Counted from the stretch's first letter, positions 48,464-57,420 are shown. The stretch: DNA of 57,586 bases from Verrucomicrobiales bacterium (GCA_016795505.1 JAEUHH010000046.1:1-57586), one strand, 5' to 3'. The notes: a model not told the origin generated them from the letters alone. Translations and numbers: made by a program.

Positions 48464-50395
48464 ATGATTCTCGCCGCCGTCAATCTGGACGACCTGACCC
48501 AGCGCGTCATCGTGGACGTGTCCGGTCTGCCGGTGCGGGTGGGCCGACAGCCGGAACGTGAGCCGGGCGAGTCGATGGAGGTGATGCAGATCCCGTGGCG
48601 CGACCGCCTGATCAGCCGCACCCACTTCGTGGCGACGCGCGAGGCCGACCGGCTCATCGTGCAGCGGATGCCGGCGCTGCCGGGCCGCAGCCGGCCGAAC
48701 GCCTTCTATTCGAACGCCCCGATCCGGCAACGGCAGGTGCTGGAGGAGCCGCTGCGGCTCCAGCCGGGCCAGGCTTTCACCATCGGAGCGCTGGGCACGA
48801 CGGCTTTTTACTGGCTGAAAAACCGGGATCATGTCGATGCCGCGGTGATGGGCTACCGGGACATCCTGGAGGTGGAGAAGGAGGGGTTCAACTCCGAGCG
48901 CCCGCGATCCCAGAGCTACGATGAGCTGACCCAGCTCGACGAATACAGCCTGCGCCTGCAACTGAAGCTGATCCAGCGCGACCTGCCGGAGCAGGTGCTG
49001 CGCGGCTGGACGAACGAGACGCAGCTTTTCACCCGCGCGGGCGCCTTTCTCGAAACGGCGTTGCCGGGGCAGAAGGGCGTGTCGGCGGCCTTCCTGGCGG
49101 TCGAGTCGGGCGAGGAATCGGTGGCTTTCCACCTCCTGAACCCCGATCCGCAGATCCGCGCCGATTTTCGCCCCAGCCGCACGCTGCTGAGCCAGCTGAA
49201 TCTGGACAGCCCGAACCCGGCCGACATCCACATCTGGACGTCGGAGCAGGACGAGAATGCCTTCCGCACCCAGAGCAGCCTCGGCCGCCAGATCGACTGG
49301 GTGGCGGCCATCCCGGTGGCCTCGATGGAGGAAGGCGCACAGATCTACCGCGATCCGGAGGGCCGTCCGGTTTACCTCTATGTCGAGACGCGGCAGTCTT
49401 TCGAGGCGGCGGCGACGGCCTTCGTGCCCTTCCTGCGCCTGGTGGCCTCGCTGGTGGCGAGCCTGCTGTCCGCCCGGGAGAAGCAGCGCATCCAGGACCA
49501 GATGTCGGCTTACTTCTCCCCCACCCTGCGGGAAGTGCTGCAGGAGGGCGATCAGGCCGCGCTGGAGCCGGCCATGGTCGATTGCACCGTGCTTTTCGCC
49601 GACCGGCGCGGCCATTCGCGCATTCTCGAGCTGGCCCGCACCGATGAGGAGATCCTCGCCCAACTGCGGGAGAACCAGAAAGTGGTGGGCCGCATCACGC
49701 AGAAGGTCTTTGACCACGATGGAGTGATCACGGACTTCGCCGGCGATGGCGCCCTGGCCCTGTGGGGCTGGCCGACCTGGCTGGAAGGCGCCGACCAGCA
49801 TCCCAGGAATGCCGTGGCCACGGCCGAGGCGATCGTGCAGAGCCTGGCGGATCGGGTGGAATTCGAAGTGGAGCATCGCCGGCTCATGTCGCCGGTGCGC
49901 ATCGGCATCAGCTCCGGCCGCATCGCCGTGGGCAAGACCGGACCGCGGCAGCAGTGGCACATCAGCGTCTTCGGCAGCGTGGCCAATCTGGGCGCGCGGT
50001 TGGAACGGATCGCAAAGGAATTCAAGGTGCCCGTGCTGCTGTCCGGGGAAACCGTGAACCGCCTGCGCTGGACTCCCGCGCCCGGTGATCCCGTGCGGCT
50101 GTTCCGCAAGCTGTGCCTGATCCGGCCCGCCGGCTTTGCCGAGTCCTATCCGATCTACGAACTGGTCCTGCCTCTGGAACTGGGCGGTTCCGGCGCCTCC
50201 GCCCAGGACGTAAGTGTCTACGAGCATGCTCTGGACCGTTTCCTCGAACGCGAGTGGGACGACTGCATCGACCTGCTGAAAACGCTGCCCGAGACCGACG
50301 AACCGGCCCGCTGGCTGCTCGACCGCGCCGACCTCTACCGTCTCCGGCCGCCCGAAGCCGGCTGGGGTGGCGAGATCGCGAGCCTCATGAAATAA
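48464..50395 (+). CDS. FHA-GAF-class III nucleotide cyclase
   Basis: A 643-residue soluble protein. Residues ~20-115 look like an FHA domain (VRVGRQPE, then ISRTHF, the phosphothreonine-binding region). A GAF-like sensory domain follows (~175-340, GWTNETQLFTRAGAFLETAL to YLYVET). The class III cyclase domain (~370-550) has metal aspartates D380 (VLFADRRG) and D428 (FAGDGALALWG) and the transition-state pair N508 and R512. It should make cAMP or cGMP under control of a phosphoprotein and a small ligand. ATG 48464 is preferred; the frame is open upstream to 48317 but without domain content. A Ser/Thr kinase gene follows, whose products could be FHA ligands. Confidence 0.87.
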   Translation: MILAAVNLDDLTQRVIVDVSGLPVRVGRQPEREPGESMEVMQIPWRDRLISRTHFVATREADRLIVQRMPALPGRSRPNAFYSNAPIRQRQVLEEPLRLQPGQAFTIGALGTTAFYWLKNRDHVDAAVMGYRDILEVEKEGFNSERPRSQSYDELTQLDEYSLRLQLKLIQRDLPEQVLRGWTNETQLFTRAGAFLETALPGQKGVSAAFLAVESGEESVAFHLLNPDPQIRADFRPSRTLLSQLNLDSPNPADIHIWTSEQDENAFRTQSSLGRQIDWVAAIPVASMEEGAQIYRDPEGRPVYLYVETRQSFEAAATAFVPFLRLVASLVASLLSAREKQRIQDQMSAYFSPTLREVLQEGDQAALEPAMVDCTVLFADRRGHSRILELARTDEEILAQLRENQKVVGRITQKVFDHDGVITDFAGDGALALWGWPTWLEGADQHPRNAVATAEAIVQSLADRVEFEVEHRRLMSPVRIGISSGRIAVGKTGPRQQWHISVFGSVANLGARLERIAKEFKVPVLLSGETVNRLRWTPAPGDPVRLFRKLCLIRPAGFAESYPIYELVLPLELGGSGASAQDVSVYEHALDRFLEREWDDCIDLLKTLPETDEPARWLLDRADLYRLRPPEAGWGGEIASLMK

Positions 50396-50474
50396 ATCGC
50401 CCTCCGACCCGTCTGAAAGCCACGCCCCACCGCGATCGTATCCGCCACCACCACCGATTTTTCCCCTCCATCCG

Positions 50475-52631
50475 TTGAATCCCGAGGAGATCCATATCAA
50501 GGACTACCAGATCCACCTGCCGGCACTCGGCGAGGGCTCCTACGGGCGTGTCTATCGGGCGACCTACCGCGGCATTTCAGATCGGGCGCTGAAAATCTTC
50601 CGCCCCGGAGCGGTCGACCTGTCCACCATGGCCCGGGAGTTGGAAAAGCTCTCCAGCGTCGCCGAGCACCACGGCATCGTGACGCTGCACGACTTCGACC
50701 TGCTCGCCGATCCGCCCTACTACGCCATGGGCCTGCACGCCGACCACCGGTCCGACGGCACCTGGGTGACGCGCACCCTGGACCGGCTCTGCGGCAAGGT
50801 CGATCCCCGCGAGGCCTGGCGGCTGCTGCGGGAGATCGCCGATGCGCTGGCCTACCTGCATCGCAACCACATCATCCACTGCGACGTCAAGCCGACGAAC
50901 ATCCTGCTCACCGACGAGATGCCCTACCGGGTGAAGTTGTGCGACTTCGGGCAGAGCCGCGGCGATGCGCTGGAGGGCTTTCACCCCGCCGGCACCCCCC
51001 TCTACGCCAGCCCGGAGCAGCTCCGCCGCCCCCGTGACTCGGCCGAGGGCCGGGGTTTCCGCTGGGACGTCTACAGCTTCGGCGTGGTGGCCTACCGCCT
51101 GTTCACGGGGAAATTTCCCCGGCTCCAGAGCCTCGCCGAGGCGGAGAAAAACAGCTTCGACCCCGAGTCCACCATCGCCGAGTCGAACATGGACGGCACC
51201 CTCGACGAGAGCCGGAACATCGACAGCGAGCGCCTCGCCCAAAAGATCGAAGCCGAGCCCGACATCAAGTGGCCGGCCGGTCTCCATATCCCCCACGACC
51301 GGCGCGAGCTGATCGAACGCTGCCTCGATCTCGACCCCTCCAAGCGCCCCGCCGACATGCGCGAGGTGTTCAACCGCATGACCGACGTCGATCAGCAGCG
51401 CGTCATGCGCCGGTCCCGCCGGCTCAATGCCCTGTTCGCCACCCTGTTGGTCATCGCCATCTGGGCCACCGGCTTCGCCCTGCTCCAGGCCCGCCGCGCC
51501 CACGATGCCTCCGCCGAAGCCAACAAGACCCGCGAGCAGGCCGAGGAACTCGTCTTCTTCATCGTCAACAAACTCAACCGCGAGGAACTCTCCGGCCCGT
51601 CGCTCGACGAGCTCTACGACCACATCGCCGACAATGCCGAGACCTACCTGGCCAATTTGCCCAAGACCCGCCGCTCTGCCACCCTGCTGCGCATCTCGGC
51701 CAACACCGCCTCCATGCGTGGTCGCCAGGCCCTCGAAACCGGCGACCTCGATCTCGCCCTCGAAAAGTTCACCCGCGGCTTTGAGATCCGCTCCCAGCTC
51801 GCCGCCGAGACCGCCGACATCCCGGAGCTCGGCTGGCTCGCCTCCAACGACCTCATGGAGATCGGCGAGGTCCAGACCCAACGGGGTCAGCTCAAAGCCG
51901 CCCTCGCCGCCTACCAGGATGCCCTCGACTGGCGTATCCGCGACGTGGATCTGAAAAAGCCACTCACCCTGCCCCAGTTGCGCCGCATCATCGAGACGCT
52001 CACCGCCATCGCCGGCATCCACGAGAAATCAGGCGACCTCAACAAGGCCATCGCCCAGATTCAGCGGGCCATCGGTCTGCACGAGATCACTGCCGCCACC
52101 CTTGAGCCCGCCGTTGAGGCCACCCTCGGGACCGATCTCATCACCATGCTCAAAGAGTTGGGCCGCCTCCAGTTTGCCCAGGCTGATCTCGACGGCTCCG
52201 AGCTTTCCTACAATCGCCTCCTCGAAGCCGCCACTCAACTCGCCGGCACCTCCGAGCCTCCTGTCTCCGCCCAGGCCCAGACCGCCCGCGCCACCGCCCT
52301 CCACGCCCTCGGCGCCATCCAGATCGCCCGCGGTGAGACCGAAAAAGCCCTCGCTTACTACCGCGAGGAAGTGAAATCCCTCGAGACCTTCGTCCAGCGC
52401 CATCCCTACGACTCCGCCGCCAAAATCCAGCTCGCCGAGGCCTACCACTCCATCGCCCAGTCCTTCGACCTCGCCGAGCCCGCCCGCCGCTCCGTCGCCC
52501 TCTACCACCTTGAGCGCGCCGTCGCCACCCTCGGCGAGCTGCCCCAGGATCAAAAAGACCTGCCCGACATCCAGGACAAAATGCTCGCCTACCACGACGA
52601 GATCTCCCGCCTCCTCGAACTGGAGGAGTGA
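50475..52631 (+). CDS. Transmembrane Ser/Thr protein kinase with TPR-like repeats
   Basis: A 718-residue kinase starting at TTG 50475 (no ATG near). The catalytic domain (1-305) has GEGSYGRVY, K40 in ALKIF, E55, H135-C136-D137 in HCDVKPTN (the HRD arginine is a cysteine), DFG 157-159 and APE-like ASPEQ. One TM helix (about 318-338, LNALFATLLVIAIWATGFAL) leads to about 380 residues of TPR-like repeats predicted outside the membrane or in the periplasm. HCD kinases do not use activation-loop arginine coordination in the usual way. It lies 80 bases after the cyclase gene and 100 before a secreted cysteine-protease-like gene. Confidence 0.88.
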   Translation: MNPEEIHIKDYQIHLPALGEGSYGRVYRATYRGISDRALKIFRPGAVDLSTMARELEKLSSVAEHHGIVTLHDFDLLADPPYYAMGLHADHRSDGTWVTRTLDRLCGKVDPREAWRLLREIADALAYLHRNHIIHCDVKPTNILLTDEMPYRVKLCDFGQSRGDALEGFHPAGTPLYASPEQLRRPRDSAEGRGFRWDVYSFGVVAYRLFTGKFPRLQSLAEAEKNSFDPESTIAESNMDGTLDESRNIDSERLAQKIEAEPDIKWPAGLHIPHDRRELIERCLDLDPSKRPADMREVFNRMTDVDQQRVMRRSRRLNALFATLLVIAIWATGFALLQARRAHDASAEANKTREQAEELVFFIVNKLNREELSGPSLDELYDHIADNAETYLANLPKTRRSATLLRISANTASMRGRQALETGDLDLALEKFTRGFEIRSQLAAETADIPELGWLASNDLMEIGEVQTQRGQLKAALAAYQDALDWRIRDVDLKKPLTLPQLRRIIETLTAIAGIHEKSGDLNKAIAQIQRAIGLHEITAATLEPAVEATLGTDLITMLKELGRLQFAQADLDGSELSYNRLLEAATQLAGTSEPPVSAQAQTARATALHALGAIQIARGETEKALAYYREEVKSLETFVQRHPYDSAAKIQLAEAYHSIAQSFDLAEPARRSVALYHLERAVATLGELPQDQKDLPDIQDKMLAYHDEISRLLELEE

Positions 52632-52732
52632 CCCTCCCCGCTCACCACGCGCGAATCGCGAGTCGGAAATCGCGTACCGCATTTTGGGATTGCCAGACAC
52701 CCCGGATCTGTCGTTTCCTGTCCCAGTAGCTC

Positions 52733-54052
52733 ATGAAAGTCTCTCTCCACCTCCGCGCCGTCTCCCCCTTCCTCCTCGCCGCGACGCTGTTGCCGCCGCC
52801 AGCGCCCGCCACCGCCCAGTCGGACGGAGATGAAAAAGCACGCGCCTTTGCCGAGCAAATCCAGGCCGGCCAGATCCCCTGCGCCCTCGATCCTCTCGCC
52901 GCCATCCCCGCCGCGTGGGGCCTGACCCCCGATCAGCTCGACACCGCCTACGCCGTGCCCGACGGCGTCAACGTGAAGAAAAATCCCTACTTCGAGTGGA
53001 TGACCCAGTCCCGCGACCGCGCTGTCTTCATGCGCCAGCCCTTCTCCAACCTGCGGGTCGATCTCACCCTGTTCGACAACGCCATCCCCGTCGAGGAAGT
53101 CGTCGTCGACTTCATTGACGGCAAACTCAACGGCATCACCTTCTCCCTCTACAACCGCGGCGACGCCGGCGAGATCTCCAGCGAAGAGTTCCAGCGCCGC
53201 TTCAAGCTTTGCGGCCAGAAAATCGGCGAGATGCTCCAGATCCGCCCCACTGCGCGCAAGGCCAATCCCACCCAGGGTCTCCTCTCCGAGGGCTGGACTT
53301 GGATCTCTCAGCACGGCATGGCCGTCCTCGAGCACAACCCCGAAGCCAACCAAGGTCGCCCGGAATTTCTCCGTCTCAAGATCGCCCCCCGCACCGCCAA
53401 AGGCGCCATCGCCGCCTCCTTCCAACAGCGGTCCACCGCCGTCAAACAGTCCGACCTGCCCCGCAACGTCACCAAGGGCGAGGGCGGCGACATTTACATC
53501 AAAGGCATCCCCATGGTCGACCAGGGCCCCAAAGGCTACTGCGTCGTCGCCACCGCCCAGCGCCTGTTCGAATACTACGGCATCCCCGCCGACCAGCACC
53601 AGATCGCCCAGGTCGCCGGCAGCGATGCCGAGCAAGGGACCAGTTCCATCGCCATGGTCGAAGCCCTCGGCAAGATCGACTACCGCTTCAAGACCCGCTT
53701 CAAGATCATCGGCATGGGCAGCAGTCGCGGCCTCGTTCAGGTCGACGAAAAGAAGCTCACCATCGGCAAATCCGTCTCCACCGACGACTTCCTCAAAGCC
53801 CTGCGCACCCACATCGACCAAGGCATCCCGCTGCTCTGGGGCCTCACCCTCGGCGAGTATCCCGAGATCCCTCCGATCGCCGAACAAGTCTCCGGCGGCC
53901 ACATGCGCATGATCATCGGCTACAACGACGAGACCGGTCACCTCATCTTCACCGACTCCTGGGGTGCCGGTCACGAGATGAAGCGCATGACCTACGACCA
54001 CGCCTACCAGGCCACTCATGGCCTCTTCGCCATGTTCCCGACGGTGAAGTGA
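52733..54052 (+). CDS. Secreted papain-like (C39-type) cysteine peptidase-like protein
   Basis: A 439-residue exported protein. A signal peptide (SPFLLAATLLPPPAPATA) is followed by a ~220-residue N-terminal region of unknown fold and a C-terminal domain resembling C39/papain-like peptidases: Q264 and C270 in DQGPKGYCVVATAQRLFEYYG, H390 in SGGHMRMIIGYND and D408 in DSWG. These would form the oxyanion hole and catalytic triad. The substrate is unknown. It follows the kinase gene closely and may be its output or sensor partner in the periplasm, which is inference from gene order. Confidence 0.78.
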   Translation: MKVSLHLRAVSPFLLAATLLPPPAPATAQSDGDEKARAFAEQIQAGQIPCALDPLAAIPAAWGLTPDQLDTAYAVPDGVNVKKNPYFEWMTQSRDRAVFMRQPFSNLRVDLTLFDNAIPVEEVVVDFIDGKLNGITFSLYNRGDAGEISSEEFQRRFKLCGQKIGEMLQIRPTARKANPTQGLLSEGWTWISQHGMAVLEHNPEANQGRPEFLRLKIAPRTAKGAIAASFQQRSTAVKQSDLPRNVTKGEGGDIYIKGIPMVDQGPKGYCVVATAQRLFEYYGIPADQHQIAQVAGSDAEQGTSSIAMVEALGKIDYRFKTRFKIIGMGSSRGLVQVDEKKLTIGKSVSTDDFLKALRTHIDQGIPLLWGLTLGEYPEIPPIAEQVSGGHMRMIIGYNDETGHLIFTDSWGAGHEMKRMTYDHAYQATHGLFAMFPTVK

Positions 54053-56147: not shown

Positions 56148-56876
56148 ATGCGCCTCCTGTTCGTCGCCGACCTCCACTATTCGCTAAAGCAGTATGACTG
56201 GCTGCTCGGCGAGGCCGATCGCTACGATCTGGTCGCCATCGGCGGCGACTTGCTGGATCTGTCGCTCACGCTCGACTCCGACGTACAGATCGCCATCGTG
56301 GAGAGATACCTGAGCCTGATCTCGGCCAAGGCCACCCTGGTGGTCAGTTCGGGCAATCACGACGGCGACAGCCGCAACGCCGCCGACGAGTCCGTGGCGG
56401 CCTGGGTGCGGGAGGCGCGGCACGACCGGCTCCACACCGATGGCGAGGGCTTCGACTGCGGCCCCGACACCCGCATCACCGTCTGCCCGTGGTGGGACGG
56501 CGATCACAGCCGGGGCGAGGTCGCGAACCTGCTGGCTGCCGAATCCGCCCGACGCCGGGATCGCTGGATCTGGATCTACCACGCCCCACCCGAGGGCGCA
56601 CGGACCAGTTGGGCCGGTCGGCGCCACATCGGCGACGAGTCGCTGGCCGGCTGGATCGCGCAATACGGCCCGGACCTGGTTTTCAGCGGTCACATTCACA
56701 ATTCCCCCTTTTACGAGGAAGGTTCGTGGATCGACCGGATCGGAAACACCTGGGTCTTCAACCCCGGCCGCCAGACCGGCCCCGAGCCGACCACCATCGT
56801 CCTGGATTTGGAGACGATGACGGCCGAATGGCGCTCCATCGAGGGCCGGGACCGGCGCGACCTACGGATCGCCTAA
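56148..56876 (+). CDS. Calcineurin-like metallophosphoesterase
   Basis: A 242-residue phosphoesterase with the five motifs of the fold: VADLHY (DxH), GGDLLD (GDxxD), SGNHDGD (GNHD), the IYHAPP histidine and GHIHNSP (GHxH). Two metals sit between these residues and cleave phosphomonoester or diester bonds; cyclic-nucleotide phosphodiesterase is one possibility in a region with a cyclase and a cNMP-binding protein, but this is speculation. ATG 56148 is preferred; the frame is open to 56076. Its last bases overlap the convergent gene's stop by 15 bases. Confidence 0.85.
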   Translation: MRLLFVADLHYSLKQYDWLLGEADRYDLVAIGGDLLDLSLTLDSDVQIAIVERYLSLISAKATLVVSSGNHDGDSRNAADESVAAWVREARHDRLHTDGEGFDCGPDTRITVCPWWDGDHSRGEVANLLAAESARRRDRWIWIYHAPPEGARTSWAGRRHIGDESLAGWIAQYGPDLVFSGHIHNSPFYEEGSWIDRIGNTWVFNPGRQTGPEPTTIVLDLETMTAEWRSIEGRDRRDLRIA

Positions 56877-57341
56877 AGTCCGAGCCGGCGGCCGGACCCG
56901 CTCGCGCGGATGGCGGTGCATGAGCAGATCGATCATCCCATCCACCATGCCGAGATGGTCGTGACCGGCGAATTGCTGTTTCAGATCGACGAGATAGCGG
57001 TTCACCCCGTCCAGCCGCCGGGCCAGGAGCCGGCACAGATGCAGACAGAGCGCCGGCTGGGCTTCCAAAAATCCCACCGGATCGTCCACCACCCGAAAGT
57101 CGCAGGGCTGGATGGCGCGCACCTCCGCGGTGTGCGGCACCCCCAGCAGAGCCGACAAATCGCCGAACACCGCCCCCGGCTCATTCGTGCGCGTCACCGC
57201 CACGCCGTCCTTGGTCACCTCCACCGCCCCGGACACGAGGAAATAGAGTAGTCCGGTGCAACCGCCCTCCTCCAGGACGACCTCGCCGGCGTCGAAGTGA
57301 CGCAGCGGCTGTTGCTGGAGGGATTCAAGCCATTCACTCAT
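56862..57341 (-). CDS. Stand-alone cyclic-nucleotide-binding-domain protein
   Basis: A 159-residue protein that is almost all one CRP-type cNMP-binding beta-roll (about 5-120): GEVVLEEGGCTGLLYFLVSGAVEV, then GAVFGDLSALLGVPHTAEVRA at the phosphate-binding cassette. The canonical GE is GD, and the invariant Arg of the R(S/T)A motif is His (HTA), so cAMP binding is doubtful. The C-terminal helices do not form a recognisable DNA-binding HTH. ATG 57341 fits the domain start; the frame continues upstream to 57416. It might bind another ligand or act as a regulatory subunit. Confidence 0.82.
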   Translation of the reverse strand: MSEWLESLQQQPLRHFDAGEVVLEEGGCTGLLYFLVSGAVEVTKDGVAVTRTNEPGAVFGDLSALLGVPHTAEVRAIQPCDFRVVDDPVGFLEAQPALCLHLCRLLARRLDGVNRYLVDLKQQFAGHDHLGMVDGMIDLLMHRHPRERVRPPARTLGDP

Positions 57342-57420
57342 CGGGTGGTGCCACTGTGGCAGTTCATGGCGTAGGGGAAAGCAAAATTGGTGCCCAGGAG
57401 GCAGTCCATTCGGCACCGGC

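Follow-up and report, generated by a model that had tools for sequence, protein, structure and literature searches.

The locus

The window, the whole 57,586-nt stretch of DNA that was analysed, is part of a 6.5-Mb genome whose closest named relatives are uncultured Verrucomicrobiales/'Akkermansiaceae' MAGs. A preliminary description of this DNA had placed three adjacent genes on one strand here, and all three were recovered at that place by a check of open reading frames and by Pfam searches (Table 1). The first gene begins at an ATG (48464), the same methionine being used as the start in relatives, and the second at a TTG (50475), with a GTG at the equivalent position in relatives.

Table 1. 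Genes, domains and candidate motif at the locus, in window coordinates
Feature	Position	Strand	Evidence
Cyclase: FHA - alpha/beta sensor (GAF-like?) - class III nucleotidyl cyclase, 643 aa	48464..50395	+	Pfam Guanylate_cyc, E 1.6e-6
FHA domain, residues 1-128	48464..48847	+	hhalign; predicted strands; conserved phosphate-site residues
Middle alpha/beta domain, residues about 148-345	48905..49498	+	AlphaFold secondary structure
Class III cyclase domain, residues about 367-570	49562..50173	+	PDB profile matches; VIA-align; residue counts
Hanks-type Ser/Thr kinase + TM + TPR, 718 aa	50475..52631	+	Pfam, alignment, structure model
Candidate FHA-docking motif, kinase residues 227-237, SFDPES-T233-IAES	51153..51185	+	alignment, loop pLDDT
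Exported C39/papain-like protein, 439 aa, outside the module	52733..54052	+	Pfam PF13529

The cyclase and kinase genes are inherited together

Of 77 related genomes, 21 have a clear orthologue of both the cyclase and the kinase, and none has only one of them. The other 56 genomes lacked both, the next-best kinase matches there having E values of only 1e-63 or weaker. This co-occurrence has a Fisher probability of 2.5e-19 over the 77 genomes, a value uncorrected for the kinship between them. Within the order, cyclase matches at E <= 1e-40 were obtained in 45 of 387 genomes, 44 of which belong to the family of the window and one to another family.

The arrangement of the genes was followed by a genome-wide contig scan of 84,980 species, each represented by a single genome. 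Of the 44 cyclase loci obtained, the only one that is not verrucomicrobial is a short fragment, from a contig with the label Cryomorphaceae. Without this fragment there are 43 loci; one breaks off at the cyclase, so that 42 were testable. The kinase gene lies directly downstream of the cyclase gene and on the same strand in 39 of these. In the three exceptions, about 12 kb separates the two genes (G011), they are on different contigs (G021), or the 1.8 kb of contig that remains holds no kinase (L141). The member from another family of the order, G241, has a cyclase with 38% identity and carries the pair adjacent but divergent. The evolutionary distances of cyclase and kinase are correlated (r = 0.88 over 38 pairs), and the genes that flank the pair (among them thiL, tsaE and sppA) are not shared between genomes, even within the genus. 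As judged by these sequence comparisons, the cyclase and the kinase are a conserved module.

Three minor observations concern individual loci. The Cryomorphaceae-labelled fragment (L173:3530-3877) is 75% identical to the cyclase and is probably mis-binned verrucomicrobial DNA. The kinase orthologue of L110 (G023:C408, 10352-12496) has an in-frame TAA at about residue 350, beyond the membrane segment, and is either a pseudogene or the product of a sequencing error. The only third gene that recurs near the pair is lipB-like (lipoyl/octanoyl transferase; named by eye), which lies upstream in several genera and precedes the cyclase gene at L096, L104 and L107. This is probably inherited synteny, and it suggests an ancestral order lipB-cyclase-kinase that has been lost in the window.

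The papain-like gene is not part of the module

The third gene had been described as encoding an exported cysteine-peptidase-like protein, and this description stands. It matches Peptidase_C39_2 (PF13529) with a Pfam E value of 3.7e-10, and the Cys-His-Asp residues C270, H390 and D408 are each kept in 22 of 23 sequences. It had also been proposed to form a signalling unit with the other two. The gene does follow the kinase gene on the same strand after a gap of 101 nt, and no terminator-like site was found on the + strand between them, as would suit a three-gene unit. However, it adjoins the pair only in the window; the orthologues of relatives sit elsewhere in the genome. Moreover, the gene is absent from eight genomes that have the pair, all three members of the same genus among them, and is found in 10 genomes that lack the pair, so that its presence or absence does not track that of the pair. 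The papain-like gene was dropped from the module on these grounds: the pair is conserved in relatives, the three genes are adjacent in none of them, and a three-gene signalling unit as first proposed is now very improbable. In another family of the order (f4; L048-L057), in genomes without the pair, the papain-like orthologues are encoded in longer frames of about 460-740 aa, partly in tandem copies (G060, G072).

The cyclase protein begins with an FHA domain

In the window protein the FHA domain falls below the Pfam threshold, and among 20 orthologues PF00498 is matched by just two, the better at E 0.0025. A sequence search of the PDB with the FHA profile gave no match up to E 10, and for this reason the FHA domains of related genomes were used as targets for profile comparison. 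Against these, hhalign gave a probability of 94.5% and a score of 46.8, compared with scores of at most 15.0 for 30 column-shuffled controls. The structure model of this region has 10 predicted strands, with pLDDT mostly 81-93. The phosphate-site residues, which fit the FHA pattern GR, S-x-x-H and N, are R28, S51, R52, H54 and N79 in the window protein; across 41 sequences R52, H54 and N79 are invariant, R28 is present in 40 and S51 in 39. With a clear profile-profile comparison and the hallmark phosphate-site residues kept, residues 1-128 are an FHA domain by homology, as had been claimed, and are predicted to bind phosphothreonine.

The middle domain had been called a GAF domain, a name for which we found no support. 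It is an alpha/beta domain that ends in a long helix (314-351) leading into the cyclase domain. Its hhalign score against GAF_2 domains was 11.7, within the range of the column shuffles, which reach 19.7, and it had no match in Pfam and no sequence match among solved structures. At best, the model indicates an alpha/beta sensor with a GAF-like order of secondary structure. A fold search with the whole model returned a list filled by cyclase matches and is thus uninformative, either way, about the FHA and middle domains.

The catalytic domain probably makes a product other than cAMP

Profile searches of the PDB matched the C-terminal domain to CyaB (3r5g, E 2.5e-15) and to the Synechocystis guanylyl cyclase Cya2 (2w01, E 2.3e-10), and VIA-align superimposed it on the two with Z scores of 18.1 and 17.4, respectively. 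The metal-binding aspartates D380 and D428 and the transition-state residues N508 and R512 are invariant in 44 of 44 sequences. By fold and homology this is a class III nucleotidyl cyclase domain, and it is predicted to be active.

The residues that read the base do not follow the class III adenylate cyclase pattern, in which a Lys is paired with an Asp or Thr. Instead, the position of the adenine-specific Lys is occupied by Asp (D424) in all 44 sequences and the second position by Ser (S501) in 43, the G241 orthologue having Gly there and hence a D-G pair. The genome encodes two further cyclases that have the Lys, together with Thr. Guanylate cyclases have Glu at the Lys site, with Cys, Ser, Thr, His, Ala or Gly as the second residue (PMC4215837, PMC7384201). 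The site here is likewise acidic, though with Asp rather than Glu, and Ser fits at the second position. The base-site residues are therefore closer, as a sequence pattern, to those of guanylate than of adenylate cyclases, and the product is probably not cAMP but cGMP. The assignment to cGMP is insecure because Asp replaces the usual Glu and because the uridylate cyclase BcPycC also recognizes UTP with the help of an Asp, D94 (PMC11224242). Thus, the earlier naming of the protein as a cyclase holds for its fold and its metal and transition-state residues, while an adenylate reading does not agree with the Asp at the Lys site.

A domain that is catalytically dead and serves as a scaffold, or one with UTP/CTP specificity that makes a pyrimidine cyclic nucleotide, seems rather unlikely. 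The uniform replacement of the adenine-reading Lys and the use of D94 for UTP recognition by BcPycC would be consistent with such a domain, as would a weak match of PycC models to it (best E 2.5e-11 in PADLOC). However, the invariance of both metal aspartates and of the Asn/Arg pair argues for retained chemistry, and, against a pyrimidine product, no Pycsar-type effector was seen to recur beside the pair, whose inheritance is congruent, as for core genes. A Pycsar system as such was rejected: it is the kinase gene that repeatedly adjoins the cyclase gene, without any other recurring effector, and the PycC models match weakly and on the shared domain. The idea of phage defence by a kinase and a cyclase in combination starts from the same PycC matches and from those of PADLOC kinase models (mad6, PD-T4-6, MkoA). 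All of these cover generic kinase or cyclase domains only, neither an effector nor another defence gene was seen to recur beside the pair, and the pair is stable as well as congruent in its inheritance; we give this idea hardly any weight.

The closest paralogue, with 33% identity, is a receiver-domain class III cyclase (G000:C88:147844-148605, L188) that has Asp and Gly at the base site.

The kinase carries a conserved threonine motif

The description of the second gene product as a transmembrane Ser/Thr kinase with a TPR part was borne out. Pfam matches were Pkinase (E 5e-34) and TPR_2 (E 8.1e-9), and the Hanks motifs G19-E20-G21, K40, HCD (135-137) and DFG (157-159) are invariant, the HCD in place of HRD making this a non-RD kinase. 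One membrane segment, at about 318-340, is followed by C-terminal TPR repeats. Since there is a single segment, with the catalytic domain taken to lie inside the cell, the TPR part is predicted to be periplasmic.

The loop between helices alphaF and alphaG is variable in sequence and has pLDDT < 50 at 227-248 in the AlphaFold model, although the N-lobe is also modelled poorly, so that a low pLDDT by itself says little about disorder. Within this variable loop a motif D-x-[DE]-[AS]-T-[ILVF]-x-[ED] is kept. Its Thr233 is present in 41 of 43 kinases, flanked by Asp229 in 42 and by Glu or Asp at 236 in all 43. The window kinase has a second loop threonine, Thr242. FHA ligands of the type pT-x-x-D/E are known. 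The motif is absent from 11 of 12 non-partner kinases of related genomes; the remaining one, in G016, also has T-x-x-D in the loop.

Where the FHA site is intact, Thr233 is present in 36 of 36 pairs, and in the two pairs where Thr233 is missing (G241 and G015) the partner FHA domain has lost Arg28 or Ser51. The Fisher probability for this correlated loss is 0.004, uncorrected, with tiny numbers and related sequences that are not independent. G011, where the genes are about 12 kb apart, is discordant, having Thr233 together with an FHA domain that has Asn at position 51. On the strength of this conservation pattern, Thr233 looks like a docking site for the FHA domain of the cyclase.

The ligand might also lie within the cyclase itself, as in the FHA-GGDEF protein DgcB of Bdellovibrio bacteriovorus, which makes c-di-GMP and whose FHA domain reads its own N-terminal Thr14 (PMC6733907). 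However, the present protein has no tail N-terminal to the FHA domain, and the orthologue alignment has no conserved Thr at the N-terminus or in the linker between the FHA and middle domains. For this reason the kinase is the economical choice as ligand carrier, and a self-ligand of the DgcB type appears less likely than one on the partner.

The conserved threonine could also serve the regulation of the kinase without any FHA binding. The pair would then still be functional, with the FHA domain reading phosphothreonine on another substrate of the kinase. Bacterial FHA proteins often bind third-party substrates, and the persistence of Thr233 in G011, despite an FHA domain without Ser51, would be accommodated. 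Nevertheless, we consider this quite unlikely, given that the T-x-x-E/D context is kept in 41 kinases within a variable loop modelled at low confidence, that most sister kinases lack the motif, and that the threonine was lost along with FHA phosphate residues in two pairs.

A proposed mechanism

The core of the preliminary description, a kinase mark read by an FHA domain on a cyclase, is strongly, if indirectly, supported by the co-inheritance and adjacency of the two genes, the conservation of their residues and the Thr motif, once the papain-like component is removed. The scheme we favour is a two-protein module from Ser/Thr kinase to cyclic nucleotide, for which we infer autophosphorylation, FHA docking, the direction of regulation, the product and the topology. 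The kinase would be an inner-membrane protein whose catalytic domain faces the cytoplasm and whose TPR repeats face the periplasm, where a cue would change the oligomeric state of the kinase. It would then autophosphorylate Thr233, and perhaps also Thr242, in the flexible alphaF-alphaG loop. The resulting pT-x-x-E/D site would be bound by the FHA domain of the cyclase, and this docking would bring cyclase dimers to the membrane, or align them through the middle domain and the long helix, or both. Cyclic nucleotide would thereby be produced at the site and time of kinase activity, by localization or by switching on, and from Asp424 and Ser501 it would be other than cAMP, most likely cGMP. Taken as a whole, we regard this mechanism as the best explanation of the data and, by a modest degree, as probable. 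The stricter version, a dedicated pathway of one kinase and one reader in which the kinase's own phosphothreonine both recruits and activates a separate guanylate-type class III cyclase, we put forward tentatively, as somewhat short of an even chance.

Relation to known systems

DgcB, the FHA-cyclase with the best structural evidence, resembles the cyclase described here: its FHA domain lies at the N-terminus and, by way of a phosphothreonine ligand, controls an enzyme that makes a second messenger, as is predicted for the present pair. It differs in having a GGDEF domain and a ligand of its own, whereas the present protein is a class III enzyme without a tail whose ligand is likely in the neighbouring kinase; the kinase responsible in DgcB has not been identified (PMC6733907).

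Cya2 shares the catalytic fold and the combination of an acidic residue at the Lys site with a small second residue (E-G in Cya2, D-S here and D-G in G241), differing in its Glu for Asp. We know of no FHA domain or partner kinase for Cya2. The Xanthomonas pair XC_0250/XC_0249 also joins a bacterial class III enzyme that makes cGMP, the product predicted here, to a functionally linked neighbouring gene, but that gene encodes a cGMP receptor rather than a Ser/Thr kinase (PMC3770947).

Partnerships of Ser/Thr protein kinases with FHA proteins of the GarA/OdhI and Fha/TagH types are centred on phosphothreonine. These FHA proteins are metabolic or secretion regulators, in contrast to the nucleotide cyclase found here; Fha-TssL is one example of such a partnership (PMC3953482). 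Myxococcus Pkn2 couples a Ser/Thr kinase to a class III cyclase (PMC1262709), as does the TOMM kinase/cyclase TIGR03903. Both are single polypeptides in which, as described, there is no FHA reader, while the kinase and cyclase of the present pair are separate proteins with a predicted phospho-dependent docking.

Thus, FHA-gated cyclases (DgcB), kinase-cyclase fusions and FHA-kinase pairs are all known already. Among the literature searched, what is new is a conserved pair of a separate Ser/Thr kinase and an FHA-class III cyclase, with docking predicted at the level of residues; an FHA-class III cyclase fusion beside a kinase was not found in that search, an absence that is no proof. To our knowledge, few links have been described between bacterial Ser/Thr kinases and cyclic-nucleotide synthesis. 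If correct, the mechanism would provide a direct link in bacteria from Ser/Thr phosphorylation to cGMP (or other non-cAMP) signalling, and the pair would add a candidate source of cGMP in Verrucomicrobia. Every step, from kinase through candidate phosphorylation site and reader to cyclase, can be assigned to particular residues of a single conserved pair, so that the entire chain is testable with two purified proteins.

Other cyclic-nucleotide-binding and FHA genes

A stand-alone protein with a cyclic-nucleotide-binding domain is encoded about 3 kb from the module (56862-57416, - strand), one of 12 matches to this domain in the genome. It was considered as the receptor of the pathway and rejected, its adjacency to the pair being unconserved in relatives. 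Elsewhere in the genome (G000:C43:31455-32715), about 1 kb separates a gene for a cyclic-nucleotide-binding domain from one for an FHA domain, possibly another link between FHA domains and cyclic nucleotides.
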